Origin: a virus
Reading direction: 5' to 3' (one strand)
Virus record (IMG/VR): IMGVR_UViG_3300046004_001686
Span: 1 to 24,601 of that record
Length of the DNA stretch: 24,601 nucleotides
Below, one piece after another: positions 3,928 through 19,351 of the stretch. Every line of letters starts with the position of its first letter. Position 1 is the first letter of the stretch. The position numbers were made by a program, and so were the translations under genes. The notes beneath the pieces were generated by a model, which saw only the letters and a program-made list of their open reading frames with translations, ran no database searches and was not told the origin of the DNA.

Positions 3928-4638
3928 ATGAAAAAAGCAGATGGGTTTGATTACGAAGAGTATAAAATATATATGAATTTTATAAATGAATGCAAAAATA
4001 AACAATATGATGAAACTTTAGTATTACATGCACATCATATAATACCAAAACATTTATGTGCAGATAATGACATTTTACATAGTAAAGAGAATATAGTAAA
4101 AATCTCAGTGGATGACCATGTAAAGGCACATTTATTAATTGCTAATTTATATCCAGAAGATACATACGAACATATTTCTAATTTAAGGTCGGCACGATTT
4201 CTTAATAAGAAATCTATAAAAGAAAAAGATGTATTGAAAAAAATAACAGATTCATATATCGGTGAAAAAAATCCATTTTATGGAAAAACACACACTGAAG
4301 AAACTCGTAAAAAATTAAGTACATCTAACATTGGAATTAGAAAAGGAAAAAATTACGAAGAAATATACGGAGTTGAAAAAGCAAATTTAGAAAAACAAAA
4401 ACGTGCTAAAAAAACTAGGACGGCCGAAGAATATAGGTTGTCGGGGAAAAAAGCTCTAGATACTAGGAAACGGCGTGGGTTGAGTAGTGAAGGAAAAAAT
4501 AATCCTTATGCACAGCCGTATCTGGTCAATGGAGTTTTATTTTATACTAGAAAAGAAGTAGAAACACATTTTGGTATGGCAATGGTTACCATAAAAAAAA
4601 GATTTAATGTAATTAAATTAAAGAGAGAAAATATATGA
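3928..4638 (+). CDS. HNH homing endonuclease with NUMOD3-type DNA-binding region
   Basis: 236 residues. The HNH nuclease core is at the N-terminus: HAHHIIPKHL (His 36/37), KENIV (Asn 55) and DDHVKAH (His 64/68). A NUMOD3-like segment (GEKNPFYGKTHTEETRKKL, about 112-130) follows, then a basic stretch and a C-terminal helix-turn-helix-like part (FYTRKEVETHFGMAMVTIKK, about 205-224) like the repeats of intron-encoded nucleases. Proteins of this kind cut a specific target and spread by repair copying. The gene is visibly more A-rich than its neighbours, which fits mobile origin. GGAG at 3917-3920 precedes ATG 3928 by 7 bases. The stop overlaps the ATG of the intact thioredoxin, so the cassette feeds straight into that gene. 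Confidence 0.9.
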   Translation: MKKADGFDYEEYKIYMNFINECKNKQYDETLVLHAHHIIPKHLCADNDILHSKENIVKISVDDHVKAHLLIANLYPEDTYEHISNLRSARFLNKKSIKEKDVLKKITDSYIGEKNPFYGKTHTEETRKKLSTSNIGIRKGKNYEEIYGVEKANLEKQKRAKKTRTAEEYRLSGKKALDTRKRRGLSSEGKNNPYAQPYLVNGVLFYTRKEVETHFGMAMVTIKKRFNVIKLKRENI

Positions 4639-4904
4639 TTATTGTTACAAAATTTAGTTCAAAAACTTGTGGCCCATGTCGGGCATTAGCTCCTGTATTT
4701 CGGGAGTTGGAGGATATGACCCTTGATGCAACATTTATCTCAGTCGATGTAGAAGAGAAACCGTCGATTGCACAGTTATATTCCATTAGAACAGTTCCAA
4801 CCGTTATCATTGAAAAGGATAATGTACTAATTGAAAAATTTGTAGGAGTACAAAGTAAACAAAAGTATATTTCTGCCATTAATGCTGCGAGAGATGGGGC
4901 GTAA
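4635..4904 (+). CDS. Thioredoxin (CGPC), rebuilt behind the HNH cassette
   Basis: 89 residues, slightly shorter than typical thioredoxin (about 105). Active site KTCGPCRAL with Cys 12 and Cys 15, the Asp-rich third strand (TFISVDVEEKP) and the cis-proline loop RTVPTVII (Pro 55) are all present. It probably reduces disulfides in the cytoplasm; the nearby class II RNR is the obvious partner. The ATG overlaps the HNH stop. Only a weak AGAGAGA precedes it, so translation is likely coupled to the HNH gene. The first 12 codons look like a recoded replacement for the segment stranded at 3799. The 3' end overlaps the next endonuclease frame by 23 bases. Confidence 0.9.
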   Translation: MIIVTKFSSKTCGPCRALAPVFRELEDMTLDATFISVDVEEKPSIAQLYSIRTVPTVIIEKDNVLIEKFVGVQSKQKYISAINAARDGA

Positions 4905-5268
4905 AAAGGAAACACAACAAAAATCTTCATTGAATGCAATAGAACAAAAAATGATGGGGTTATTGCATTCAATGAATCTTTCGTATGAATCTCAAGCAAC
5001 AATTGATAATTATAATGTTGACTTTTTGATTGACGAGAAGTATATTATAGAATGTTATGGGGATTACTGGCATTGTAATCCAGCCAGATATTCCGCGGAT
5101 TATTACAACCGTGGGAAGAAAAAAACTGCAGCAGAAATCTGGAAGCGTGATGAAAAAAGGAAACGTGAGCTGGAAAAATTAGGTTACAAAGTTTTATATT
5201 TCTGGGAACATGAAATTAATAATAATATAAAAGATATAAAAGCAACATTAAAACGATATATTACGTGA
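4882..5268 (+). CDS. Vsr-like (EDxHD-type) homing endonuclease
   Basis: 128 residues with the layout of Vsr/PD-(D/E)XK-related single-domain nucleases: VDFLIDEKYIIECYGDYWH (Asp 47, Glu 57, Asp 61, His 64), then WKRDEKRKREL (Asp 90), and a final KVLYFWEHEI. The E-D-H-D set matches the Vsr-related EDxHD homing endonucleases found in phages (I-Bth0305I is the known example). It would cut DNA as a free-standing mobile nuclease rather than repair mismatches; a repair role is possible but no Dcm-type methylase is seen. It starts inside the thioredoxin end. ATG 4894 is an alternative start; neither has a good ribosome site. Confidence 0.8.
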   Translation: MLREMGRKKETQQKSSLNAIEQKMMGLLHSMNLSYESQATIDNYNVDFLIDEKYIIECYGDYWHCNPARYSADYYNRGKKKTAAEIWKRDEKRKRELEKLGYKVLYFWEHEINNNIKDIKATLKRYIT

Positions 5269-5275
5269 GGACAAT

Positions 5276-5650
5276 ATGGTTACAGAAATTACGATGGACG
5301 AAATGATTGCGGGATTACCTGTCCCCGATAATGATTTACGGGTGGTAATGTTTTTTGGGACAACGTGCGGCCCATGTCAAGCTACTCGTCCACATTATGA
5401 AGCAACTGCACAGTTCTTCGTGGAAAAAACTACTCGTGCACAATTCTTTAGAATTAATGCATGGGAACCCGAAGAACAGAAAGTGTATTGTACAGAAACA
5501 TGGGGCATTCAAGGAGTTCCTCATTTTAAAGTATTTTGTCGAGGAGAACAAATTCTTGATAAGGTCGGCGGTGGAGACGAACCAACCATGATGAAATTTA
5601 TTCATGATGGAATAGATGAAGCATTTAAACGTTTTGGAGAACGAATCTAA
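5276..5650 (+). CDS. Second thioredoxin-like protein
   Basis: 124 residues with a thioredoxin fold pattern: VVMFFGTTCGPCQATRP (Cys 31 and Cys 34), a strand RAQFFRINAWEP, and the cis-proline motif GIQGVPHFKVF (Pro 82), then GGGDEPTMMKFI. It has an N-terminal extension of about 20 residues relative to the first thioredoxin. GAGG in the short gap before ATG 5276 is a plausible ribosome site. Its stop overlaps the dUTPase ATG (TAATG). With the RNR upstream and dUTPase downstream it fits nucleotide metabolism. The two thioredoxins are too different to be a recent duplication. Confidence 0.88.
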   Translation: MVTEITMDEMIAGLPVPDNDLRVVMFFGTTCGPCQATRPHYEATAQFFVEKTTRAQFFRINAWEPEEQKVYCTETWGIQGVPHFKVFCRGEQILDKVGGGDEPTMMKFIHDGIDEAFKRFGERI

Positions 5651-6124: not shown

Positions 6125-8650
6125 ATGGCGTATCAAAATATTTTTATAGATTCAACATCCGATGAACAAACCGCATATATCTGGGATGATGCACAGGGAC
6201 TTATCACCTTACCGTTGTCAGAATTTAATTATGCATATGTCCGTGACCCGAAAGGAAAGTATATCAGTATGACGGGAGAACGCCTCAGTAAAACGAGGCG
6301 TTTTGTTCGTAATAGCACAAATGTATTTGAAAGTGACCTTCCAAAAGAAACTCGCGTTCTTACAGATTTGTATTTGAATGAAGATATGCCGTCAGAAGGG
6401 AATATTATATTGTTTTTTGACATTGAGGTGTCAATGGAAAATGGTATTCCAGATACCCGTAAGCCAAATAATGAAATTACATCTATTGCATTTTGTGATG
6501 CGATTACAAATGAGTATAAAGTATTAGTATTGGATAAATCTGGTGCATATGAAAATGTAACAAAGAATGGAGCAATGGTTTATTTCTTTAAGGAAGAAGT
6601 TAATTTGTTACATGAATTCATTAATCAATACGAGCAAATTGGTCCAACCATCATTACTGGGTGGAACAGTAATGGTTTTGACGTTCCATATCTATACAAT
6701 CGTATCAAGCAAATTTGTGGAGCAAGTATTGCTAATCGGTTGAGTCCTATAGGGAAGGTAAGATATTCCGATAGATTGGAACGATATCGCATCGCTGGCG
6801 TAAGCTCGTTGGATTATCTGGACTTGTATAAGAAATACACCTATACTCAACAACCTAACTATCGTCTTGATACGATTGGCCGATTGGAAGTAGGAATGGG
6901 TAAAGTAGATTATGATGGGTCTTTGGACGATTTGTTTCGTGATGACCTAGAAAAGTTTATTGAGTATAATTTGCAAGACGTTCGCATCATTGTTGATTTG
7001 GACAAGAAGCTAAAGCTTATCGACTTGGTTCGTGGTATCTGTCATCTTGGTCACGTACCATATGAAGATTATCCAATGGCATCGCGTGTACTTGAAGGTA
7101 CAATTGTTACCTATCTGCATCGTAAAGGAATTATCGTTGCTGACAAACCAAAGGACAGTAAAGAAAAGATGGAAGCGCTTGACCGCGGTGAAGAAGGGTT
7201 CGTAGGTGCATACGTGCAAGAACCAGTTCCTGGGTTGTATGATTGGGTATACTCCCTTGACTTGCAATCTCTGTATCCCAGTATCATTATGAGTTTGAAT
7301 ATTTCGCCTGAGACAAAGGTTGCGAAGGTATTGAACTTTGATATGGAAAAACATTTGCGTAAAGAAATTGTTGCCTATGTAATTCAAGAAATTGGCGATG
7401 AGATGACAGTGGAACTAGAGCACGATGCCTTTGTTAATTTCTTAAAGGAAAATAATCTTACGATAGCATCAAACGGTGTATTATATAATACAGTAACGAA
7501 GGGTATTATCCCCGAAGTATTGGAAGAATGGTTTGCCAAACGTGTTGAGTATAAGAATCTTATGAAGAAGTATACGACGGAAGGTGATAAGGTGCAAGCA
7601 GCCTATTATGACCAACGGCAACATATTCAGAAGATTTTCTTGAACTCATTGTATGGTGTGTTAGGCTTGCCTGTATTTCGTTTCTATGACGTAGACAATG
7701 CTGCCGCAGTAACATTGACGGGGCAAGATGTAATTAAGACTACGGCAAAGTTTATCAATAAGAAGTATGAAAAGGCAACGGGTGAACAGAAAGACCATTG
7801 TGTATATGTTGATACCGACTCGGTATACTTTCCAGCAAAACCAATGTTTGTTGAAGGTAGTACTGATGACCTTGCTTCCACAATTAGTATTGCCTATGAC
7901 ATGGAAAGCACGTTGAATACATTCTATGATTCTATGGCAAAACGTATGTTCAATTGCGATAGTCATAAGTTCCATATTAAAGGAGAAAGTGTCGCAAAGA
8001 CGGGATTCTGGGTAGCTAAGAAACGATATGCACTGGATAAGGTGTATGACTTGGAAACTCGACAGAACGCAAGTAAATTGGTGGTGAAGGGATTGGACGT
8101 TGTACGGTCGTCGTTTCCTAAAGCATTTCGGGAGTTCATGACACAAATGTTGAAGGATATTTTGGGTAGAGTAGATAAGCAAGAATTAGATGATAAGATT
8201 CTTGCGCTCAAAACATCTATCAAGACTCGTCATTATTTGGAAGTCGCACGAAATACGTCGGCAAATAATATCAGTCAATATTCTGCTGGTGAGGAAGGGA
8301 ACGGGATGAATAAGTTTAAAAAGGGAACTCCCGCTCACATCAAGGCAGCAATCGTATACAATAGATTATTAAAGCATTATAATATTCAAACAAAGTTTGA
8401 ACCAATCACCGATGGCGCGAAGATTAAGTATGTATATCTTAAGGATAATCCACTACAGATTGAAGCCTTGGCAATTAAAGGGTATCAAGACCCACCACAA
8501 ATTGTTGATATGATTACCGAGTATATGGATACAGATGCATTGTTTGAAAATGAATTACGTAATAAATTAGATGACTTTTATACGGCATTAAAATGGGGTA
8601 ATATCCCCACGGAAGTAAATCAAAATGCAGGGGAATTTTTCTCCTTTTAA
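6125..8650 (+). CDS. Family B DNA polymerase with 3'-5' exonuclease (T4 gp43-like)
   Basis: 841 residues, slightly shorter than T4 gp43 (898). Exonuclease motifs: FFDIEVS (Asp 99, Glu 101), GWNSNGFDVPYL (Asp 186) and EYNLQDVRI (Asp 285). Polymerase motifs: A as SLDLQSLYPSII (Asp 379), B as KIFLNSLYG (503-511), C as YVDTDSVYF (Asp 563, Asp 565), then GFWVAKKRYAL and a thumb region. All catalytic carboxylates are present, so both synthesis and proofreading should work. The C-terminus (AGEFFSF) ends in a short hydrophobic tail, as expected for a clamp-binding peptide. It has its own promoter and starts a new transcription unit after dUTPase; the clamp and loader genes lie 3.5-11 kb downstream. 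Confidence 0.97.
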   Translation: MAYQNIFIDSTSDEQTAYIWDDAQGLITLPLSEFNYAYVRDPKGKYISMTGERLSKTRRFVRNSTNVFESDLPKETRVLTDLYLNEDMPSEGNIILFFDIEVSMENGIPDTRKPNNEITSIAFCDAITNEYKVLVLDKSGAYENVTKNGAMVYFFKEEVNLLHEFINQYEQIGPTIITGWNSNGFDVPYLYNRIKQICGASIANRLSPIGKVRYSDRLERYRIAGVSSLDYLDLYKKYTYTQQPNYRLDTIGRLEVGMGKVDYDGSLDDLFRDDLEKFIEYNLQDVRIIVDLDKKLKLIDLVRGICHLGHVPYEDYPMASRVLEGTIVTYLHRKGIIVADKPKDSKEKMEALDRGEEGFVGAYVQEPVPGLYDWVYSLDLQSLYPSIIMSLNISPETKVAKVLNFDMEKHLRKEIVAYVIQEIGDEMTVELEHDAFVNFLKENNLTIASNGVLYNTVTKGIIPEVLEEWFAKRVEYKNLMKKYTTEGDKVQAAYYDQRQHIQKIFLNSLYGVLGLPVFRFYDVDNAAAVTLTGQDVIKTTAKFINKKYEKATGEQKDHCVYVDTDSVYFPAKPMFVEGSTDDLASTISIAYDMESTLNTFYDSMAKRMFNCDSHKFHIKGESVAKTGFWVAKKRYALDKVYDLETRQNASKLVVKGLDVVRSSFPKAFREFMTQMLKDILGRVDKQELDDKILALKTSIKTRHYLEVARNTSANNISQYSAGEEGNGMNKFKKGTPAHIKAAIVYNRLLKHYNIQTKFEPITDGAKIKYVYLKDNPLQIEALAIKGYQDPPQIVDMITEYMDTDALFENELRNKLDDFYTALKWGNIPTEVNQNAGEFFSF

Positions 8651-8652
8651 TA

Positions 8653-8662
8653 GGTAATTACC
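8653..8662. promoter_or_regulatory. Perfect 10-base palindrome beside a promoter
   Basis: GGTAATTACC lies two bases after the polymerase stop and just before the -35 box at 8666. A second dyad, CCCC-N9-GGGG (8662-8678), spans the -35 box. Their position suits an operator, but no matching site is seen at the other two promoters. Confidence 0.35.
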
Positions 8663-8665
8663 CCC

Positions 8666-8694
8666 TTGACTTCTGGGGTGACATTGATTATATT
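8666..8694 (+). promoter_or_regulatory. Sigma-70 promoter for the small-gene/ligase unit
   Basis: TTGACT (8666-8671), 17-base spacer, TATATT (8689-8694). The spacing is the same as at the polymerase promoter. It would serve the two small genes and the ligase. Confidence 0.8.
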
Positions 8695-8722
8695 ACTAGT
8701 ATACCACAACCGAGGTCAAAAT

Positions 8723-8854
8723 ATGTGTAAGTACTGTATCAAATACTTTCAGCTGCTCTCCCGCCATTGCACGGTACATTCCTATGGTGAATGTGATTGC
8801 CCAAAGTGTCAGGGCATGTGTTCATGTACATCTAACAATCTGAGAAATAACTAA
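8723..8854 (+). CDS. Small cysteine-rich protein, probable zinc binder
   Basis: 43 residues with nine cysteines and two histidines: CKYC at the start, a central RHC, then CDCPKCQGMCSC. The clustering suggests one or two metal-binding knuckles. ATG 8723 has GAGGT six bases upstream (8712-8716); the longer frame upstream would run through the promoter and is not credible. Function unknown. Confidence 0.6.
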   Translation: MCKYCIKYFQLLSRHCTVHSYGECDCPKCQGMCSCTSNNLRNN

Positions 8855-8956
8855 ATGATTGATGACTCTATGGATGAGTACTGGGGATTTATGGTGTTTG
8901 GTGTAGGACTTCTTCTGATGGGAATGGGTAAACTTTTTAAACGGTGGTTTCGATGA
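8855..8956 (+). CDS. 33-residue single-span membrane peptide
   Basis: Begins directly after the previous stop (TAAATG) and ends in ATGA with the ligase start. An acidic N-terminus (IDDSMDEY) is followed by one hydrophobic helix (WGFMVFGVGLLLMGMGKLF) and a basic end (KRWFR), typical of an inner-membrane peptide with the positive end inside. The tight junctions on both sides support it being translated. Role unknown. Confidence 0.5.
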   Translation: MIDDSMDEYWGFMVFGVGLLLMGMGKLFKRWFR

Positions 8957-10086
8957 AAATCCTTAAGTCGAGCGATTGGCTAATTTCCGAAAATAAGGCC
9001 GGTAATCGGAAGTTCTGGCGGTTGCATATCCTTCAAGACGATACTGCATATGACGAGGGCCGCCGCGTTGCACGGGTTGATTTCTATACACAGAGCGAAT
9101 GGTATCAGTTGACCAAGACGGGCCGTGAAACGAAGAAGCAAAAGTCGGAACCATACTTTGCCGCACCAACAAATGTTGGACGAGCAAACGAACGGAACAG
9201 TGAAGAGCAGGCGTTCTTTGAGTTCGATGCCATTATCAAGAAGCAGTTGGATGCGGGATTCTATCGGGAAGGTGAGAAAGTAGATAGTTGGCCTATGCCG
9301 ATGTTGGCACACAAGTTCAAGGACCATATGAACAAGGTGGAATGGCCGTCATACATCCAACCCAAGTTGAACGGTATGCGTATGTTGTTCAATGGCACCG
9401 AAGCACGCAGTCGGGGTAACAAAGAAATTATTCCCGAAGTGATTCAGCATTTGCAGTTTGATACAGGTGGATTCATTCTTGATGGCGAACTAATGCTTCC
9501 GAATAATCAGTTGTTGCAGGAAAGCATGAAGGCTATCAAGAAGTATCGCCCAGAACTGTCTCCGCTACTCATGTATCATGTATATGATATCGTGGACAAC
9601 GAACTTCCATATGCCATGCGTCAGCAGATTATTGTTGACTTGATGCATAACGCCCCACCGAATGTCGTCATGGTGAAGACGGTAGAATGCATGGATGAGA
9701 CAGAAGTCTATGAGCAGCACACGCAGTTCGTATCGGAAGGTTACGAAGGTACAATGATTCGTAATCCGTCGATGGAATATGAAATTGGTAAGCGTTCCTA
9801 TTCACTACTTAAATTAAAGGATTTTGTTGATGCAGAATATCGTATTGTTGATGTTATTGACGGCGATGGAAGTGACAAGGGGCTTGCTATTTTCATCTTG
9901 GAAACAGATGACGGTAGCCGGTTCAATTGTCGTCCAGAAGGCACTCAGAGTAATCGAGCGGAACTATATGTCAGTCGTAAGGAATTGGTAGGTAAGTTCT
10001 TGACGGTTCGCTATCAAGAATTGAGCCGCGACGGCATTCCGATCTTTCCGGTCGGCGTGTCGATTCGTGTGGGTGGAGAATTCTAA
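8953..10086 (+). CDS. ATP-dependent DNA ligase
   Basis: 377 residues from ATG 8953 (coupled by ATGA to the small gene before it). The adenylation motif I is PKLNGMR with catalytic Lys 138; motif III FILDGELML, motif IV YEGTMIRNP and motif V SLLKLKDF follow in order, then an OB-fold domain (EYRIVDVIDGDGS to the end). It seals nicks via an enzyme-AMP and DNA-AMP intermediate. The first 105 residues form an extra domain with a WGR-like pattern (KFWRLHIL, then VGRANERNSEEQAFFEFDAI), seen also in other phage ligases. Its OB domain ends IRVGGEF. The gene is less AT-rich than its neighbours. Confidence 0.95.
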   Translation: MKILKSSDWLISENKAGNRKFWRLHILQDDTAYDEGRRVARVDFYTQSEWYQLTKTGRETKKQKSEPYFAAPTNVGRANERNSEEQAFFEFDAIIKKQLDAGFYREGEKVDSWPMPMLAHKFKDHMNKVEWPSYIQPKLNGMRMLFNGTEARSRGNKEIIPEVIQHLQFDTGGFILDGELMLPNNQLLQESMKAIKKYRPELSPLLMYHVYDIVDNELPYAMRQQIIVDLMHNAPPNVVMVKTVECMDETEVYEQHTQFVSEGYEGTMIRNPSMEYEIGKRSYSLLKLKDFVDAEYRIVDVIDGDGSDKGLAIFILETDDGSRFNCRPEGTQSNRAELYVSRKELVGKFLTVRYQELSRDGIPIFPVGVSIRVGGEF

Positions 10087-10307: not shown

Positions 10308-10431
10308 GGCATCACAGTCGGGCGGGACGACGGTAGGAGTGGATATACGGGCGCTACCCGAATGTTACAACCACACTATGCTAGCCAAGGACTTAGAGAA
10401 ATCTATGTGGGGTTCGACTCCCCTGATGCCA
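10308..10431 (+). ncRNA. tRNA-like element of non-standard length (124 nt)
   Basis: GGCATCA (10308-10314) pairs perfectly with TGATGCC (10424-10430), followed by an A as discriminator. Just inside the 3' arm is a textbook T-arm: GGGG, TTCGACT loop, CCCC (10409-10423). Before it is a short hairpin with a GAAA loop (TAGA/TCTA, 10394-10405) in the variable-arm position. Near the 5' end GTCG/CGAC (10317-10331) could be a D-arm. I cannot find a normal anticodon arm: the middle about 60 bases are extra, with another stem GGTAG/CTACC (10332-10358). No CCA is encoded. It could be a tRNA with an insertion, a decayed tRNA, or a tRNA-like structural RNA; a tmRNA would be far longer. Confidence 0.45.
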
Positions 10432-10441
10432 CTTTCAAACT

Positions 10442-10446
10442 GGGAG
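10442..10446 (+). promoter_or_regulatory. Ribosome binding site that fixes the Mom-like start
   Basis: GGGAG lies 5 bases before ATG 10452. The frame is open further up to ATG 10362, but that stretch is the tRNA-like element and has no ribosome site, so ATG 10452 is chosen. Confidence 0.6.
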
Positions 10447-10451
10447 TTGTA

Positions 10452-11252
10452 ATGCTTATAGTAAAAGAAGTTTCTAAGAAAACCGCAATTGATTTTATTC
10501 ACACGTATCATTATAGTAAAATTTTACCGAGACTAACCAAATTTTATTTGGGATACTTTGAAGAAAATGTATTAGTAGGAGTAGTTACACTTGGTTGGGG
10601 AACACAGCCACTACAGACCATTAAAAAAATATTTTACAACCATGATATGGTAACTACTGATTATTATGAGATTGGTAAAATGTGCTTTTTGCCTGAAAAG
10701 AATGGTGGTAATTTTGGTTCTCTTGCCATGAAACTATTGATTGATTGGGCAAAGCAAAATACAAAAACTAAGTTTATTTATACAATGGCTGATGGTATTA
10801 TGGGGAAGTGTGGATTCGTATATCAAGCATCAAACTTTCGTTATTTGGGAAGTTTTAAAACCGATGTGTATATGGATAAACTCACGGGAGAAAAAATGCA
10901 CCCTAGAAGTGCTAAGCAGCTACATATAGAAAATGCAAAATTCTTGAATAAAGATAAAGTATTTTGGTTAACGCAAGATTTTTGTGAATTGAAAGGAATT
11001 GATAGAATTAGAGGATTGATGTTTCGGTATATATACCCGCTGAATAAGCAGGCTCGTAAAATAATAGAGACATATCCAGAATATGCAAATTTAAAGAATC
11101 CAAAAGAAACAAATTTGTTATTTGAAAGAAGAATTGCAGCTGGTAAATATGAAACTATTAATAAACCAAATTTCAACATGAATGTATTTACGCATAACTA
11201 TCAAAAATATACAGCCAGTGATTTTGCAAAAGAGTTCTTCGATATTACTTAG
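10452..11252 (+). CDS. Mom-like GNAT-fold protein (candidate DNA-modifying acyltransferase)
   Basis: 266 residues. An N-terminal HTYHYSK motif (18-23), a central strand LVGVVTLGW, then YYEIGKMCFLPEKNGGNFGS with the following helix, and TMADGIMGKCGFVYQASNFR (111-130) reproduce the order seen in phage Mu Mom and relatives: a His-Tyr-Lys-like N-terminal motif, a GNAT acyl-CoA-type core and a Y-x-A-x-N-F/W signature. Mom converts adenine to a carbamoylmethyl-type derivative and protects phage DNA from restriction. The C-terminal 100 residues are extra and may bind substrate. DNA as the substrate is an inference. A second, more Mom-like protein lies at 18512. The amidase gene follows after 9 bases. 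Confidence 0.65.
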   Translation: MLIVKEVSKKTAIDFIHTYHYSKILPRLTKFYLGYFEENVLVGVVTLGWGTQPLQTIKKIFYNHDMVTTDYYEIGKMCFLPEKNGGNFGSLAMKLLIDWAKQNTKTKFIYTMADGIMGKCGFVYQASNFRYLGSFKTDVYMDKLTGEKMHPRSAKQLHIENAKFLNKDKVFWLTQDFCELKGIDRIRGLMFRYIYPLNKQARKIIETYPEYANLKNPKETNLLFERRIAAGKYETINKPNFNMNVFTHNYQKYTASDFAKEFFDIT

Positions 11253-12881: not shown

Positions 12882-14066
12882 ATGTCCGATAAATTCGCAG
12901 AGTTCTTTGATGTTCCAGTAGTTACACTTGATGACGCAAAACAGGCATTCATTGATAACATGGATTTGCTGAAAGGCATGACCGTGCAGGAACAGACGCT
13001 TTACAAGAAGTGGAAAGAAGTCAAGGGATACTATGCGAATAAGGTAGATGCGTCCAGAATTGTAAAAGCAAAAATCTGGACGCCTACTGACATTATGAAT
13101 AAAGAACAAACAGTTCGTGAGATTGAAGCGTTGGTTCCACGTATTCGTGTGGTGGCTGCAAAATCTCAAGATGAAGTAGATTGGTTGATACTTCGTGTAT
13201 TTTCTCATACAATGGAATTCGACCAGAATCCCGGCCGATTCGTTAAATTTCTAGTATATGATGAAGTAACTGGTAAGTATCTTGGAGCAACTTCGTTGGG
13301 TAGTGATGTCATCGCCATTACGTGCCGTGATGAGTGGATTGGGTGGAAGAAGGATGAACGATTGAAGGGTAAACTTAATAACAGTGCAATTGGCACGTGT
13401 ATTATGGCCACCCAGCCATTCGGATATAACTTCCTTGGTGGAAAGCTTGTTGCCTCACTGTTAACGACCAAGGTTGTTTCTGATGCATGGGAATCATTGT
13501 ACAATAACAAGTTGGCAGGCCTTACCACAACGTCACTGTATGGTTCAGATTCCATGTATAATAGTATTCCCTTTTGGAAAAAGATGGGTTCAAGTAAAGG
13601 AGCTATTGGACTGAAGCCGGACGATGATGTATATGACGTATGGCATCAGTATGTTAAGGAACATATGAAGGATGAATACGACAAAAAGATTAAGTCTAAG
13701 GACGCGTCACATGGGCCGGTGACCGGCATTAAGCAGCAAATTCTTTCTATTATTTTTAGAGCAGTGGGTATTAGTCCTTCGAAATACAAACATGGATTTG
13801 AACGAGGTGTATACTACGCTCCACTGTATGAGAATACCCGTGAGTTTTTGCGTGATGAAATTACTGAAGATAAATTAATTCCTTTGGCAAAACTGAAGGA
13901 CGATGTTGATTCTGTGGTTAACTGGTGGAAACCTAAAGCAATCAACCGTTATATTAAACTTCATGAAGAAAATAGATTAAAGCCAGAGATTCTTTTTTAT
14001 AACGGAATTATTGGACTTTCGTGGGAAGAAGCAAAAGAAACTTATTTAGGAGATGTAGGCCGATGA
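12882..14066 (+). CDS. DruA/DUF4338-like protein
   Basis: 394 residues. Residues about 118-240 carry the DUF4338 signature known from the Druantia defence protein DruA: FLVYDEVTGKYLGATSLGS, then CRDEWIGWKKDERL, LNNSAIGTCIM, a helix after GYNFLGGKLVASLL, then LTTTSLYGSDSMYNSIPFWK. The N-terminal 100 residues and the C-terminal 150 are unlike anything I recognise. The order of elements also matches the GNAT-like core of the two Mom-like proteins in this window, hinting at a shared fold (inference). The molecular activity of DruA-type proteins is not something I can state. AAGGA precedes ATG 12882. Its stop overlaps the start of the glycosyltransferase, so the two are probably made together. Confidence 0.65.
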   Translation: MSDKFAEFFDVPVVTLDDAKQAFIDNMDLLKGMTVQEQTLYKKWKEVKGYYANKVDASRIVKAKIWTPTDIMNKEQTVREIEALVPRIRVVAAKSQDEVDWLILRVFSHTMEFDQNPGRFVKFLVYDEVTGKYLGATSLGSDVIAITCRDEWIGWKKDERLKGKLNNSAIGTCIMATQPFGYNFLGGKLVASLLTTKVVSDAWESLYNNKLAGLTTTSLYGSDSMYNSIPFWKKMGSSKGAIGLKPDDDVYDVWHQYVKEHMKDEYDKKIKSKDASHGPVTGIKQQILSIIFRAVGISPSKYKHGFERGVYYAPLYENTREFLRDEITEDKLIPLAKLKDDVDSVVNWWKPKAINRYIKLHEENRLKPEILFYNGIIGLSWEEAKETYLGDVGR

Positions 14067-15172
14067 AATTTTGGGATACCATTGATATTGATAATTGCCG
14101 TAAAGTATTGGTAATCCCTAACATTACTAATTCGGCAAATATTGAAAAAGATTCGTTTGTGGATGTGATTTATAACCATATTATCGCATTAAAAGAATAT
14201 GGTGATTATTACTGGCACATCATTCTCCCACAACCAGTTGCTAAACTTAATTTAGATAACGTTAAGCAACACATTGTAGAAATTTCTGGTGACATGATTC
14301 ACATGCGAGTTACCTTTCCTCGCAAGGCCATCAACATTTTACAGGAACTTGATTATGACGTAATATACTCGCATCTTCCAGATTGGTATATGGTGAAAAG
14401 ATATACTGATAAGCCTATTATTGGATATTCACATTGGTGGGAAATGAAAACGTGTAACGCTGAGGATAGGAAAAATCATCAACGTAATATTGTTCCTGAA
14501 TTGCTGGGTGTACTTGGTATGGAAGTGTGTTACCTCAATACACAAGACCAAAAGAATCGTGTATTAAATGAAGCGCGTGAATGGTTTAACGATGAGAAAA
14601 TTCAACAGTTAGATAAGATTCTACATGTTTGGAACTTAGGAGCGCCAAAGGACAAGATTGTAGAAAGCTGTCCTTCTCACAAGGATAAGATTATTGTTTT
14701 TAATCATCGCGCCGCAGCTTACAAAGGATATCCTCATTTCATCGAACTAATGAAGGAATATAGAAAACAACGTGATGATTTTACAGTGTGGGTGCCGCAG
14801 CTGGACGGTATACCAGAAGCTTCGTGGATTGATAATACGAAAGTTCCTAAGCACGAATATTATGAAAGGCTACAGAGATGTTCTGTTGGAGTTCAAATGC
14901 GACAATCCAATTATGGATGGTCAGTTGCCGCTGTCGATTGTATGATGAATGGAACGGCTATGGTGTTTCAAGAATCGGATTGTTATCGTGAAATAGATCC
15001 AGACGGGATATTTTTTACATATAAAAAAGATTTGTTTAGAGCACTTGACAAATTCTTGGATGACAATATCTTCCGATATGAGCAAGGAACAAGAAGTATA
15101 AATAGAGTTAAAGAACTACAAGAAAAAGAAAAACTCATGTTTTTACAATTAAATAAACAATTAAATCAATAA
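14063..15172 (+). CDS. GT-B glycosyltransferase (GT1/GT4-like)
   Basis: 369 residues from ATG 14063, coupled to the DruA-like gene by ATGA with AGGAG at 14048-14052. The C-terminal half has the GT-B donor-site pattern: VFNHRAAAYKGYPHFIELMK (sugar-nucleotide strand), KVPKHEYYERLQRCSVGVQM, then SVAAVDCMMNGTAMVF, the segment that in GT4 enzymes carries the donor-binding Glu. Here the strict E-x7-E is not obvious. The N-terminal half is a plausible acceptor domain. DNA glucosyltransferases of T4 also use the GT-B fold, so DNA is a possible acceptor, as are virion proteins or envelope glycans. Nothing in the sequence decides this. The next gene starts 8 bases after the stop. Confidence 0.75.
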   Translation: MKFWDTIDIDNCRKVLVIPNITNSANIEKDSFVDVIYNHIIALKEYGDYYWHIILPQPVAKLNLDNVKQHIVEISGDMIHMRVTFPRKAINILQELDYDVIYSHLPDWYMVKRYTDKPIIGYSHWWEMKTCNAEDRKNHQRNIVPELLGVLGMEVCYLNTQDQKNRVLNEAREWFNDEKIQQLDKILHVWNLGAPKDKIVESCPSHKDKIIVFNHRAAAYKGYPHFIELMKEYRKQRDDFTVWVPQLDGIPEASWIDNTKVPKHEYYERLQRCSVGVQMRQSNYGWSVAAVDCMMNGTAMVFQESDCYREIDPDGIFFTYKKDLFRALDKFLDDNIFRYEQGTRSINRVKELQEKEKLMFLQLNKQLNQ

Positions 15173-15180
15173 AAATTATT

Positions 15181-16740
15181 ATGAATAATACCCCAAAGGT
15201 TCTAAAGAGTCAAAAACCGTCTATCACAATTAAAGCAGCAAAACGTAATGCAGCATCAACTATTGATTGGGCAGATACTCTATCAGAATTAATTGATAAT
15301 GCCATTCTGGTAGATAAAAATAAGTGTGTGGAGGTTATTGTGAACATGCACTGCGACAATGACGAAGAAAAGTCATTTATTCAAGTGGTTGATAATTCTA
15401 TCGGCATTCCAGAAAGAGATTTCCTAGATGTATTTAACTATGGAACCTCAGCCAACATCGGAAAGATGCTTTTGGGTAAAATGGGAATGGGATTAAAGGG
15501 AGCCGTTTGGGGATTGGGTGAATTAGATTACGCAATTAGTAAAACATCGAATGGAAATAAGTGTGAAGTTCGTCCGCGCCCTTATGATTCTGATGAGGAG
15601 GAACTAGTGTACGAACAAGTTGAATGTACGAGTTCTTTACTTGATGCACAAAAACATGGAACGTGTATACGAATTAAGAGAGTAAATGATACGCTACCGA
15701 TGTGGAGTAATAAGAAACATTTTGATAAGGTTGTAGAAAAGTTCAATAGTATGTATGCTATCCTGCTTCATGAAAATCGCGTTAATATCAAGTTCTATTA
15801 TAGTAATTCAAACGGAAATAAGTTTGATGCAACGTGTGGAGGTTCTTTTCCACTCATGAGTAATCCTCGACACATACTGAACTCCAATCCAGAAATTAAC
15901 ATAGGACACAATGAACCTACCTATAAAGAAGGTACGCTAGAAAAAATTGAGAAGATTGAAATCAAGACGGCGAATACAAAGGTATATGTCACGGCTTGGC
16001 ATAAGCCCACGCCGACGCAAGTTGAAAAACATTATGAAGTCACCAAGGATGCAAAGTATGACCCCGTGAAGTATAAAAATTCTGTATTCGGATATGGGGC
16101 GGCGCGAGCAGGCATGTGTGTATTATACAAGGGAAAGTTTGTTCAGTTAGGATTGGAACGGGCAAGTTCTCGTGAAAGTGATAAAGGAATTATTATAGAA
16201 ATTCCCGAGGATTGTGGACTAAAATTTACTCAGTATAAAAATACATTTGTTCAAGATGTTAATTATCGTGAATGTCTAGATGCAGTGAATGCTTTTCTGG
16301 AAAGTAATGGGTTCATGATTCGTAGTATCTCCGGAACTCCGCAGGTGTCAGAAGATGAAATTGTTTTAAAGTTTGTAGAGTTCATCAGAAACGACCCAAT
16401 TTATAGCCAAAGTTTTGGTATTGTAAATTTTAATGAACAAGTTAAAACATGGGTGGCTAGCGAAGTTGGTGAAGCTGACATCGTAATATACGATTATTAC
16501 AATAAAGATAAAGTTAATGTACTTATAGAAGCAAAAAAAGACCGATGTGGTGCGGAAGAGGCTCGGCAGTTATGGGGGTATATGTGCGAGTTTGGTTGTG
16601 ATAGAGGCATCCTCTTGACAGGCACAACTGAACAACCTACATTTAGAGCACAGATTCAAGCATTCAAACGACACCACAACGGACTTAGTATGGAAACTGC
16701 AAACGTCAATTCTTTAACTTCTTCTAAGTTTTTTACATGA
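15181..16740 (+). CDS. GHKL-type ATPase fused to a PD-(D/E)XK nuclease-like domain
   Basis: 519 residues. The first about 170 form a Bergerat ATP-binding fold: N-box SELIDNAI (Glu 36, Asp 39, Asn 40), G1 VVDNSIGIP (71-77), G2 GKMGMGLKGAVWG (99-111) and the HGTCIRIKR strand. That is the MORC/MutL/HSP90 pattern. The last 90 residues read GEADIVIYDYY, then NVLIEAKKD: Asp 433, Glu 450 and Lys 452 match the PD-(D/E)XK triad, followed by a helix with Gln and RGILLTG. The middle (about 170-420) is unassigned. It may be an ATP-driven nuclease. There is no ribosome site before ATG 15181; translation may be coupled to the upstream gene. Its stop overlaps the clamp-loader ATG. Confidence 0.75.
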   Translation: MNNTPKVLKSQKPSITIKAAKRNAASTIDWADTLSELIDNAILVDKNKCVEVIVNMHCDNDEEKSFIQVVDNSIGIPERDFLDVFNYGTSANIGKMLLGKMGMGLKGAVWGLGELDYAISKTSNGNKCEVRPRPYDSDEEELVYEQVECTSSLLDAQKHGTCIRIKRVNDTLPMWSNKKHFDKVVEKFNSMYAILLHENRVNIKFYYSNSNGNKFDATCGGSFPLMSNPRHILNSNPEINIGHNEPTYKEGTLEKIEKIEIKTANTKVYVTAWHKPTPTQVEKHYEVTKDAKYDPVKYKNSVFGYGAARAGMCVLYKGKFVQLGLERASSRESDKGIIIEIPEDCGLKFTQYKNTFVQDVNYRECLDAVNAFLESNGFMIRSISGTPQVSEDEIVLKFVEFIRNDPIYSQSFGIVNFNEQVKTWVASEVGEADIVIYDYYNKDKVNVLIEAKKDRCGAEEARQLWGYMCEFGCDRGILLTGTTEQPTFRAQIQAFKRHHNGLSMETANVNSLTSSKFFT

Positions 16741-17651
16741 TTGAAAATACACTATGGGTTGAAAAGTATCGTCCAAGCACATTAGAAGGATATGTCGGTA
16801 ACGATGTATTGAAAGCAAAGTTAGAACAATATATTGAAACTCAAGACATTCCCCACTTACTATTTTATGGAACGGCTGGAACTGGTAAGACCACAGCCGC
16901 TAAGATACTTATTAAGAATATCGACTGTGATTATATGTTCATTAACGCATCTGATGAACGAGGCATTGATACGGTTCGTGACAAGATTAAGGGATTTGCA
17001 TCAACGGTTGGATTTGCCCCATTGAAGATTGTTGTGTTGGATGAGGCAGACTTCTTGGGACGAGAAGCACAACCTGCGCTTCGTAACATGATGGAAGCAT
17101 ATTCGGCATCCACACGATTTATTCTAACGGCAAATTATGTTGAACGGATTATTGACCCACTGGTAAGTCGCACTCAAGTATATAAGTTAACTCCACCAAG
17201 TAAGAAAGAAGCGGCAAAGAAGTTGGCGGATATTCTAAAGGATGAGAATATAGAGTACGAAACAAAGACTATCGCACAGATTGTAAACGCATATTATCCA
17301 GATATTCGAAAGATTATTAATACCGCACAATTGCAAACGCGTGATGGGAAACTACAAGTCAGTATTGATGAATTGATTGGTCAAGATATCAAATTGAAAG
17401 TAGTAGATGTATTAACGAGTAATATGCCATTTAAAGATAAAGTATCAGAAGTTCGTAAGTTGGTGGCAGATAGTCAAATTCAAGACTTCACAGAATTGTA
17501 TGGACTATTGTATGAGCATGTGGACACCTATGCACCAACTAAAGTCCCTCAGGCGGTCATTGCAATCAACGAGGGGCAGAAATGGGAGGGTCAGGTGGCT
17601 GACCGAGAACTTAATTTTACAGCAACATTATATAATATTTTAACAAACTAA
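16737..17651 (+). CDS. Clamp loader ATPase subunit (T4 gp44-like, RFC small subunit)
   Basis: 304 residues (T4 gp44 has 319). N-terminal WVEKYRPSTLEGYVG is the typical RFC box. Walker A YGTAGTGKTT (44-53), Walker B VVLDEAD (99-105), sensor 1 FILTANY (128-134) and PLVSRTQ (141-147, the SRC motif with Thr for Cys) are in order. As a complex with the small subunit it opens the clamp and loads it on primed DNA using ATP. The start overlaps the GHKL gene stop (ATGA). The partner subunit gene is not next to it but at 19332. Confidence 0.95.
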   Translation: MIENTLWVEKYRPSTLEGYVGNDVLKAKLEQYIETQDIPHLLFYGTAGTGKTTAAKILIKNIDCDYMFINASDERGIDTVRDKIKGFASTVGFAPLKIVVLDEADFLGREAQPALRNMMEAYSASTRFILTANYVERIIDPLVSRTQVYKLTPPSKKEAAKKLADILKDENIEYETKTIAQIVNAYYPDIRKIINTAQLQTRDGKLQVSIDELIGQDIKLKVVDVLTSNMPFKDKVSEVRKLVADSQIQDFTELYGLLYEHVDTYAPTKVPQAVIAINEGQKWEGQVADRELNFTATLYNILTN

Positions 17652-18511: not shown

Positions 18512-19351
18512 ATGGAAGAACTATACGTTGATACATCACGAATTGCTGTCCGTCCACTAAATAAAAGTGTGGCGGCAGCATTTATCACCGAACATCATTA
18601 TACACATAAGAGTAGTTCGTGTCGATATGCATTAGGTATTTTTTATGTGGAAGAAGAACATTCGTTCTTTGCAGGTTCTCATGAAAAACTTATTGGGTGT
18701 ATGACGTATGGCCATCCTGTAAGCAACCGAGCAGTGGGTTCTCTTACAAAAACGATTCCGTTAGAATTGGATAATGTATTAGAACTCACCCGCTTGGTGG
18801 TATTTGATGGATATGGAAAAAACATTGAAAGTTATTTTATCGGGCAATCATTTCACTGGTTAAAACAAAATGCGCCAGAAGTGAAAATCCTTATCAGTTA
18901 TGCTGACCCCGAACAAGAACATACTGGTGGAATTTATCGGGCAACGAATTGGTTATATCAAGGATGTGGATATACAAAGTTAATGCCAGATTATTCTATT
19001 AAGTTATTTGAGCATGGTGAATGGATTCATAGTCGTACCGTTGCCGAAAAGTTTGGGCATAAAGCTGTTGAAAGTTTAGCAAGTCGCATCGGGCATACCT
19101 TTTGGCGTAAAGAAGAAACGTCGAAGCATCGATATATTTACTTCTTATGTAATAAACGTGAAAAGAAGCACTTGATTTCTGACATCAAAATACCCATATT
19201 TCCTTATGGAAGTCTAACAAAATATACCCAGCTTATTCAGAAAGTACATGTAAAAGATGGAATTGTTGAGCACGTCGAAGTATTACAAGGTGTTGATAAC
19301 GGATGGGAAAACAAACAAGGAGCATTAGCAGATGGCGAAGAAGAAAGCTGA
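18512..19351 (+). CDS. Mom-family protein (candidate adenine-modifying acyltransferase)
   Basis: 279 residues and the clearest Mom relative in the window. The N-terminus has FITEHHYTHKSSSCRYALGI (24-43), the conserved His-Tyr-Lys region of Mom. Then come KLIGCMTYGHPVS, LELTRLVVFDGYGKNIESYF (90-109), KILISYADPEQEHTGGIYRA (125-144) and TNWLYQGCG. This is the GNAT-like core. Mu Mom makes a modified adenine that blocks many restriction enzymes. The 100 C-terminal residues (KFGHKAVESLASRIG, YIFLCNKREKKHL) resemble the RYIF..GN.K.RK end of other Mom-like proteins. It starts 3 bases after the ClpP stop with only a weak ribosome site and overlaps the gp62-like gene by 20 bases. Confidence 0.75.
   Translation: MEELYVDTSRIAVRPLNKSVAAAFITEHHYTHKSSSCRYALGIFYVEEEHSFFAGSHEKLIGCMTYGHPVSNRAVGSLTKTIPLELDNVLELTRLVVFDGYGKNIESYFIGQSFHWLKQNAPEVKILISYADPEQEHTGGIYRATNWLYQGCGYTKLMPDYSIKLFEHGEWIHSRTVAEKFGHKAVESLASRIGHTFWRKEETSKHRYIYFLCNKREKKHLISDIKIPIFPYGSLTKYTQLIQKVHVKDGIVEHVEVLQGVDNGWENKQGALADGEEES

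Follow-up and report, generated by a model that had tools for sequence, protein, structure and literature searches.

ATPases of the GHKL (Bergerat) fold that carry a restriction-type nuclease have been described from bacteria. The paraMORC3 family, reported in 2008, combines a GHKL domain with an S5 domain and a restriction fold and is prevalent in proteobacteria and Bacteroidetes (Iyer, Abhiman and Aravind, PMC2292703), and GHKL proteins of such a kind were proposed to act with nucleases in restriction-modification (RM) systems (Iyer et al., PMC2292703). VcSduA, a Shedu type I-D protein of Vibrio cholerae, confers a restriction of phage that depends on its ATPase residues as well as on its nuclease residues (PMC12137116). 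The stretch analysed here (the window, 24,601 nucleotides of an IMG/VR virus record) encodes a fusion of this architecture in a freshwater phage: P0001, a GHKL ATPase joined to a putative PD-(D/E)XK nuclease (15181..16740, plus strand, as are the other features of P0001, its slot, the adjoining module and gp44). The architecture is previously known from bacterial anti-phage defence, whereas the preliminary description had recognised no named phage family with it. Compared by description, P0001 resembles paraMORC3 proteins in its N-terminal GHKL domain, its C-terminal E-D-ExK motif of the restriction fold and its kin near RM genes, and its middle region, with a conserved basic residue, is probably of their S5 type. 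Indeed, the paraMORC3 nuclease signature (E-D-ExK, RecB-like affinity) is present in P0001 at the motif level, with a profile match to Cas4 at E 0.009. Unlike the bacterial paraMORC3 genes, the P0001 gene lies in a lytic-type phage, beside mom, druA and gt2. With VcSduA, again compared by description, it shares the fusion of a GHKL ATPase to a C-terminal PD-(D/E)xK nuclease, but the VcSduA nuclease is a DUF4263 domain and P0001 instead has the QxxxY motif of the Cas4/RecB kind; DUF4263 gave no Pfam match to P0001 at E up to 1, and PADLOC was likewise without a match.

The P0001 gene is uninterrupted from ATG to TGA (519 aa), and its composition (GC 0.377, GC3 0.315) is similar to that of its neighbours gt2 and gp44, so there is no compositional sign of recent entry. 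An intact N-terminal Bergerat site had been proposed for it, and this holds: residues 33-161 match Pfam HATPase_c_3 (E 1e-10; 42.2 bits, the cut-off being 25) within a GHKL domain spanning residues of about 30-210 (15268..15810). The superfamily motifs (ExxxN, DxGxG, GxxGxG and GT) are found as E36xxxN40, D71-NSI-G75, G99xxG102xG104-K106 and G160-T161, invariant with relatives save for the first glycine of DxGxG, which is Ser73 in P0001 and Ala or Gly in relatives. A PDXDC1-like Pfam match and several PHROG matches of P0001 (E 0.08-0.3) were set aside as chance. While the single sequence of P0001 could not be folded usefully (pLDDT 34), a model from seven sequences (mean pLDDT 54.6) is good over the GHKL part, which lies closest to SMCHD1 (Z 17.6, rmsd 3.7 A, 215 residues aligned) and MORC2, MORC3 and MORC4 (Z about 15.5, rmsd about 3 A, about 190 aligned), followed by Hsp90 (Z below 15); the rows of these structural alignments (VIA-align) cover chiefly residues 1-223 and hence are no test of the nuclease part. 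As regards MORC proteins proper, P0001 is thus structurally near MORC2-4 in its GHKL part, whereas its middle region has diverged too far for the GhXhhpXXRhl motif to be located. That region probably contains an S5-like transducer (residues about 254-359; 15940..16257), model confidence being low over 222-359, and K353, invariant in alignments A2, A3 and A5, is a candidate lysine finger.

The C-terminus (residues about 380-512; 16318..16716) is predicted to be a PD-(D/E)XK nuclease domain from its motifs, weak profile matches and the predicted order of its elements. The D-x16-E-x-K triad noticed earlier is exactly so spaced (D433-x16-E450-x-K452) and forms part of a fuller series, E391...D433...E450xK452...Q463xxxY467, in which E391 (codon at 16351) lies upstream of a catalytic core at 16477..16581 made up of D433 (16477), E450 (16528), K452 (16534), Q463 (16567) and Y467 (16579). 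Below the Pfam cut-off, Mrr_cat matches whole P0001 at E 0.008 and the C-terminal domain alone at E 0.0012, and HSDR_N_2 matches this domain at E 0.0067. A profile of the C-terminal family finds Cas4 (4r5q) as its best solved structure, at E 0.009 with the D, ExK and QL residues aligned, and also matches NucS weakly; P0003 and P0005 in turn match Cas_Cas4 weakly. The nuclease region of the model has a pLDDT of about 35-64. Its predicted elements (helices at 391-404 and 419-428, strands at 436-440 and 446-451 with E450, a helix at 458-471 with Q463 and Y467, and a strand at 475-479) come in the order that a PD-(D/E)XK core would have, the fold itself not being confidently modelled. All six motif residues are invariant in five relatives at about 20% identity. 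Of 34 C-terminal columns invariant among these five, P0001 keeps 12, namely all six motif residues and six of the 28 others; the corresponding hypergeometric P of 7e-4 is indicative only, because the motif set was picked from general knowledge of PD-(D/E)XK and RecB-type QxxxY enzymes. This selective conservation bears on the notion that P0001 is a phage-protecting GHKL protein akin to RIIA, with a C-terminal motif that is non-catalytic. RIIA proteins do occur among the viral structure library matches over the GHKL part, but only the GHKL fold is shared, no RIIA PHROG is matched by sequence and the listed RIIA proteins have 600-800 aa. Together with the retention of six nuclease residues, this renders such a role extremely improbable.

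The relatives of P0001 are few and divergent. Neither tblastn with P0001 on 50,697 phage records nor a search of IMG/VR by patterns drawn from P0001 alone yielded any. The first, P0002 (WP_241097392.1), resides on plasmid pBP01R2b of Priestia megaterium (22% identity over 91%, pairwise E 2e-12), and further members reside on two L. plantarum plasmids, on five IMG/VR contigs (L057, L065, L066, L067 and L068, L065 lying within a 156-kb viral contig) and in one Clostridia genome (L061), giving nine full-length relatives at about 20% identity to P0001 on plasmids, in viral contigs and in that genome. L061 was the one locus found in a genome scan with alignment A2; 398 genomes of its phylum and 196 of its class added no full-length relative. 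At the one further match, L064, a GHKL gene is followed by a different ATPase-like gene, which is another architecture. The relatives in L061, L066, L067 and L068 and P0002 share about 50% identity with one another and 18-25% with P0001. They resemble it over the full length and in both active sites, but at about 20-25% identity only, and theirs are bacterial RM islands, plasmids or prophage-like contigs. Both active sites are kept at about 20% identity, the invariant residues being E36, D39, D71, G75, G102, G104, K106, G160, T161, K353, E391, E450, K452, Q463 and Y467, to which alignments A3 and A6 add D433. At L061:5218-7395 in the Clostridia MAG, the relative forms the C-terminal part of an in-frame fusion with a RepA_N plasmid initiator domain.

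Several bacterial kin adjoin methylase or restriction genes: a C5-methylase and a MutH/Sau3AI enzyme in Priestia, a Sau3AI-type enzyme in L. plantarum, a BglII-type enzyme and an HNH gene in L066, and HsdM two genes away in L061. In the five viral records with other members of the family, the DruA and C5-methylase families were unmatched, but neither did the DruA control give a match. It is conceivable that a paraMORC3- or Shedu-like defence gene was simply borrowed from bacteria for superinfection exclusion, sensing the DNA structure or a protein of a rival phage independently of the phage's own marks. VcSduA acts without a described modification partner, standalone paraMORC3 genes were noted by Iyer et al., and some relatives lie apart from methylases, for example one adjoining recombinases (L057) and one an FRG-domain gene (L068). 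However, the P0001 gene sits exactly in a slot beside a modification module where unrelated switch-nucleases also occur (see below), and we consider a mark-independent role unlikely, if still a serious contender.

The surroundings of P0001 comprise a T4-like replisome (PolB, clamp, gp44 and gp62), an RTPR-type ribonucleotide reductase and two Mom genes, the closest cultured phage by polymerase being Microcystis phage Mel-JY01 (46% identity). As the preliminary description had it, the TGA of P0001 (16738-16740) overlaps the ATG of the gp44-type clamp loader at 16737 (ATGA, 16737-16740; gp44, 16737..17651, phrog_168 E 7e-83). The tie to the replisome that had been read into this overlap is not supported, since relatives with 82-86% identical clamp loaders have other genes at this place. 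In L004 the end of a methylase gene (10004) lies past the gp44 start (10001), as does the end of a GIY-YIG-ParB gene in L017 (7697, with gp44 from 7687), so the overlap is a property of the site and not of the GHKL gene. All 20 viral loci with related clamp loaders are without the P0001 gene, and no HATPase_c_3 or GHKL protein is encoded in 21 related phage records, pointing to a gene that was acquired or is seldom retained. Repair, one of the functions first considered, could take the form of a MutL-like role in repair or recombination alongside the clamp and its loader, which would fit the overlap, the exonuclease and ligase nearby and the GHKL fold that MutL shares. Yet P0001 matches the structures of SMCHD1 and MORC best, no match to the MutL C-terminus was seen, the other slot occupants are not repair genes and relatives with the same replisome do without P0001. 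A repair role is thus among the least supported, and very unlikely.

What recurs beside P0001 is instead a set of genes resembling, by sequence, a DNA hypermodification module. The window has two Mom-family enzymes, mom1 (10362..11252, Pfam Mom E 7e-52) and mom2 (18512..19351, E 7e-44; found with druA-gt2 in the close lineage), a DruA (DUF4338) protein (12882..14066, Pfam DruA E 5e-32) and the GT-B-like glycosyltransferase gt2 (14021..15172, weak matches to Glyco_transf_4 and Glycos_transf_1). A scan with gt2 retrieved 33 viral loci, most of which group one or two Mom genes, DruA and gt2 next to the polymerase; Mom, DruA and gt2 recur as a module beside polymerase and clamp in about 30 viral contigs (L025-L056). 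This recurrence hints at a part in DNA modification for DruA, a protein known from Druantia defence, where its function is unknown. We found no Mom-DruA link in the literature, and no similarity between the Mom and DruA profiles was detectable (hhalign probability 0.8%). In L049, a RimK-like ATP-grasp gene lies between two Mom genes (4565-5449), possibly adding a further hypermodification step, and a mom1 remnant of about 24-30 codons persists upstream of the amidase gene in L007, L008, L010, L011 and L017, where mom1 is lost.

The P0001 gene occupies an exchangeable slot (15173..16740) between gt2 and gp44. The DNA of the window is colinear with that of L017 up to 15171, the end of gt2 (87.5%), and again from 16746 (89.0%), L017 holding GIY-YIG-ParB in between. 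DNA comparison shows exact one-gene exchanges between the window and L017, L038 and L040, and L033 and L030, and exact presence or absence of one gene between L033 and L028, always with colinear flanks of 84-98% identity. Besides the window, 14 contigs (some of them near-identical records) have a switch-nuclease fusion adjoining gt2, of one of three unrelated kinds: GIY-YIG-ParB in nine contigs including L017, GmrS-HNH in L033, L038 and L053, and ParB-PD-(D/E)XK in L040 and L049, the PD-(D/E)XK part of L049 being read by eye. The domain matches include GmrSD_N at E 4e-6 and 2e-7, just below the cut-off, an endonuclease VII/HNH PHROG at E 1e-9 and ParB PHROGs at E 0.009 and 0.001. Like P0001, the fusions in L033, L038, L030, L017 and L049 join a nucleotide-switch-type domain to a nuclease at the same place beside gt2, but they have DUF262 or ParB in place of GHKL and mostly HNH or GIY-YIG nucleases. 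Other genes adjoin gt2 in L027 and L051, and in about 12 related contigs druA lies directly against gt2 with no nuclease between, indicating that the cutter is dispensable. Among about 50 loci, no switch-nuclease fusion was found elsewhere than beside gt2; in L056, the one locus flagged as an exception, the fusion does adjoin a gt2, which is cut by the contig end. The occupants differ even between contigs whose gt2 genes are over 90% identical.

Such exact insertion or absence of one gene (L033 versus L028) could also mark a place where mobile or homing nuclease genes settle, with the GHKL gene as a selfish passenger of no use to the phage. Homing-type HNH, GIY-YIG and VSR genes are scattered across these loci, and the GIY-YIG part of the L017 occupant matches a homing-endonuclease PHROG (E 4e-8). 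But fusions with GHKL or GmrS are not known to act in homing, every switch-fused nuclease adjoins gt2 while simple homing genes occur elsewhere too, and the bacterial kin of P0001 are RM-linked, making a mere passenger distinctly unlikely.

A more appealing scenario, to which we assign a probability of roughly one half, is that P0001 is the ATP-gated cutting arm of a phage-borne RM-like module and cuts DNA that lacks the phage's own marks. The fusion, the conserved active sites, the recurring module and the exact one-gene exchange of switch-nuclease genes beside gt2 are shown here. That the protein dimerises, is gated by ATP and cuts DNA, what the marks consist of, and that unmarked DNA is the target are inferred. 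A DNA nuclease of paraMORC3 or GHKL-nuclease type would have been taken up by a lytic-type phage whose marking arm, mom2-druA-gt2 and possibly mom1, probably hypermodifies and glycosylates phage DNA. Two P0001 subunits would bind ATP and close around DNA, and the S5-like middle part would relay this to the C-terminal PD-(D/E)XK domains, which would cut unmarked DNA, either the host chromosome or that of a rival phage. Of the functions first suggested, an exclusion nuclease or host-DNA degrader remains the most likely kind. T4 endonucleases II and IV likewise destroy DNA without the phage's base modification, but they have no ATP switch and unrelated folds.

ParB-domain proteins whose role is unknown are common in phage cytosine hypermodification loci (PMC12783734), and ParB folds bind CTP, ATP or GTP (PMC12704722). 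Taken together, the RM-linked kin, VcSduA, the proposal of Iyer et al. and the ParB literature suggest that the slot may hold an NTP-switched cutter complementary to the modification. It also speaks for an RM-like module that the lineage with TAGT glycosyltransferases has another modification set at the same place. Against it count the absence of the cutter from the contigs without a nuclease beside gt2 and the single phage copy known of the P0001 gene; moreover, the modification enzymes, and not foreign DNA, could be what the ParB, GmrS and GHKL domains act on. Tentatively, and with rather less assurance, we envisage a freshwater phage clade with a self-contained Mom/DruA/glycosyltransferase module and one interchangeable cutter position, filled by at least four unrelated switch nucleases (GHKL, GmrS and two ParB types), in which the restriction gene turns over faster than the marking genes. 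P0001 widens the range of an architecture of bacterial defence to a large phage that encodes a replisome of its own, and there it would work to the benefit of the virus. The slot also provides a testable rule: the marks of a Mom/DruA/glycosyltransferase module should block the NTP-switch nuclease that adjoins it.

The region around the clamp loader is variable in other respects. In L004-L016, TAGT glycosyltransferases and, in nearly all, an N6/N4-type DNA methylase lie between clamp and clamp loader, and druA, gt2 and mom2 are all missing; in the window and L017, druA and gt2 take that place and mom2 lies between clp and gp62. Whole DNA-modification sets, TAGT glycosyltransferases/methylase versus druA-gt2-ghkl, thus appear to have been exchanged. 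In L017, the clamp-loader gene (7687-9889) is split by an intein-like insert that starts with CLEENTLVHV after DE and contains a nuclease-like ORF of 276 aa (8356-9186). The window itself has a VSR/DUF559-type nuclease gene (4882-5268) and an HNH-like gene (3928-4638), probable homing enzymes of a kind scattered through the related loci.
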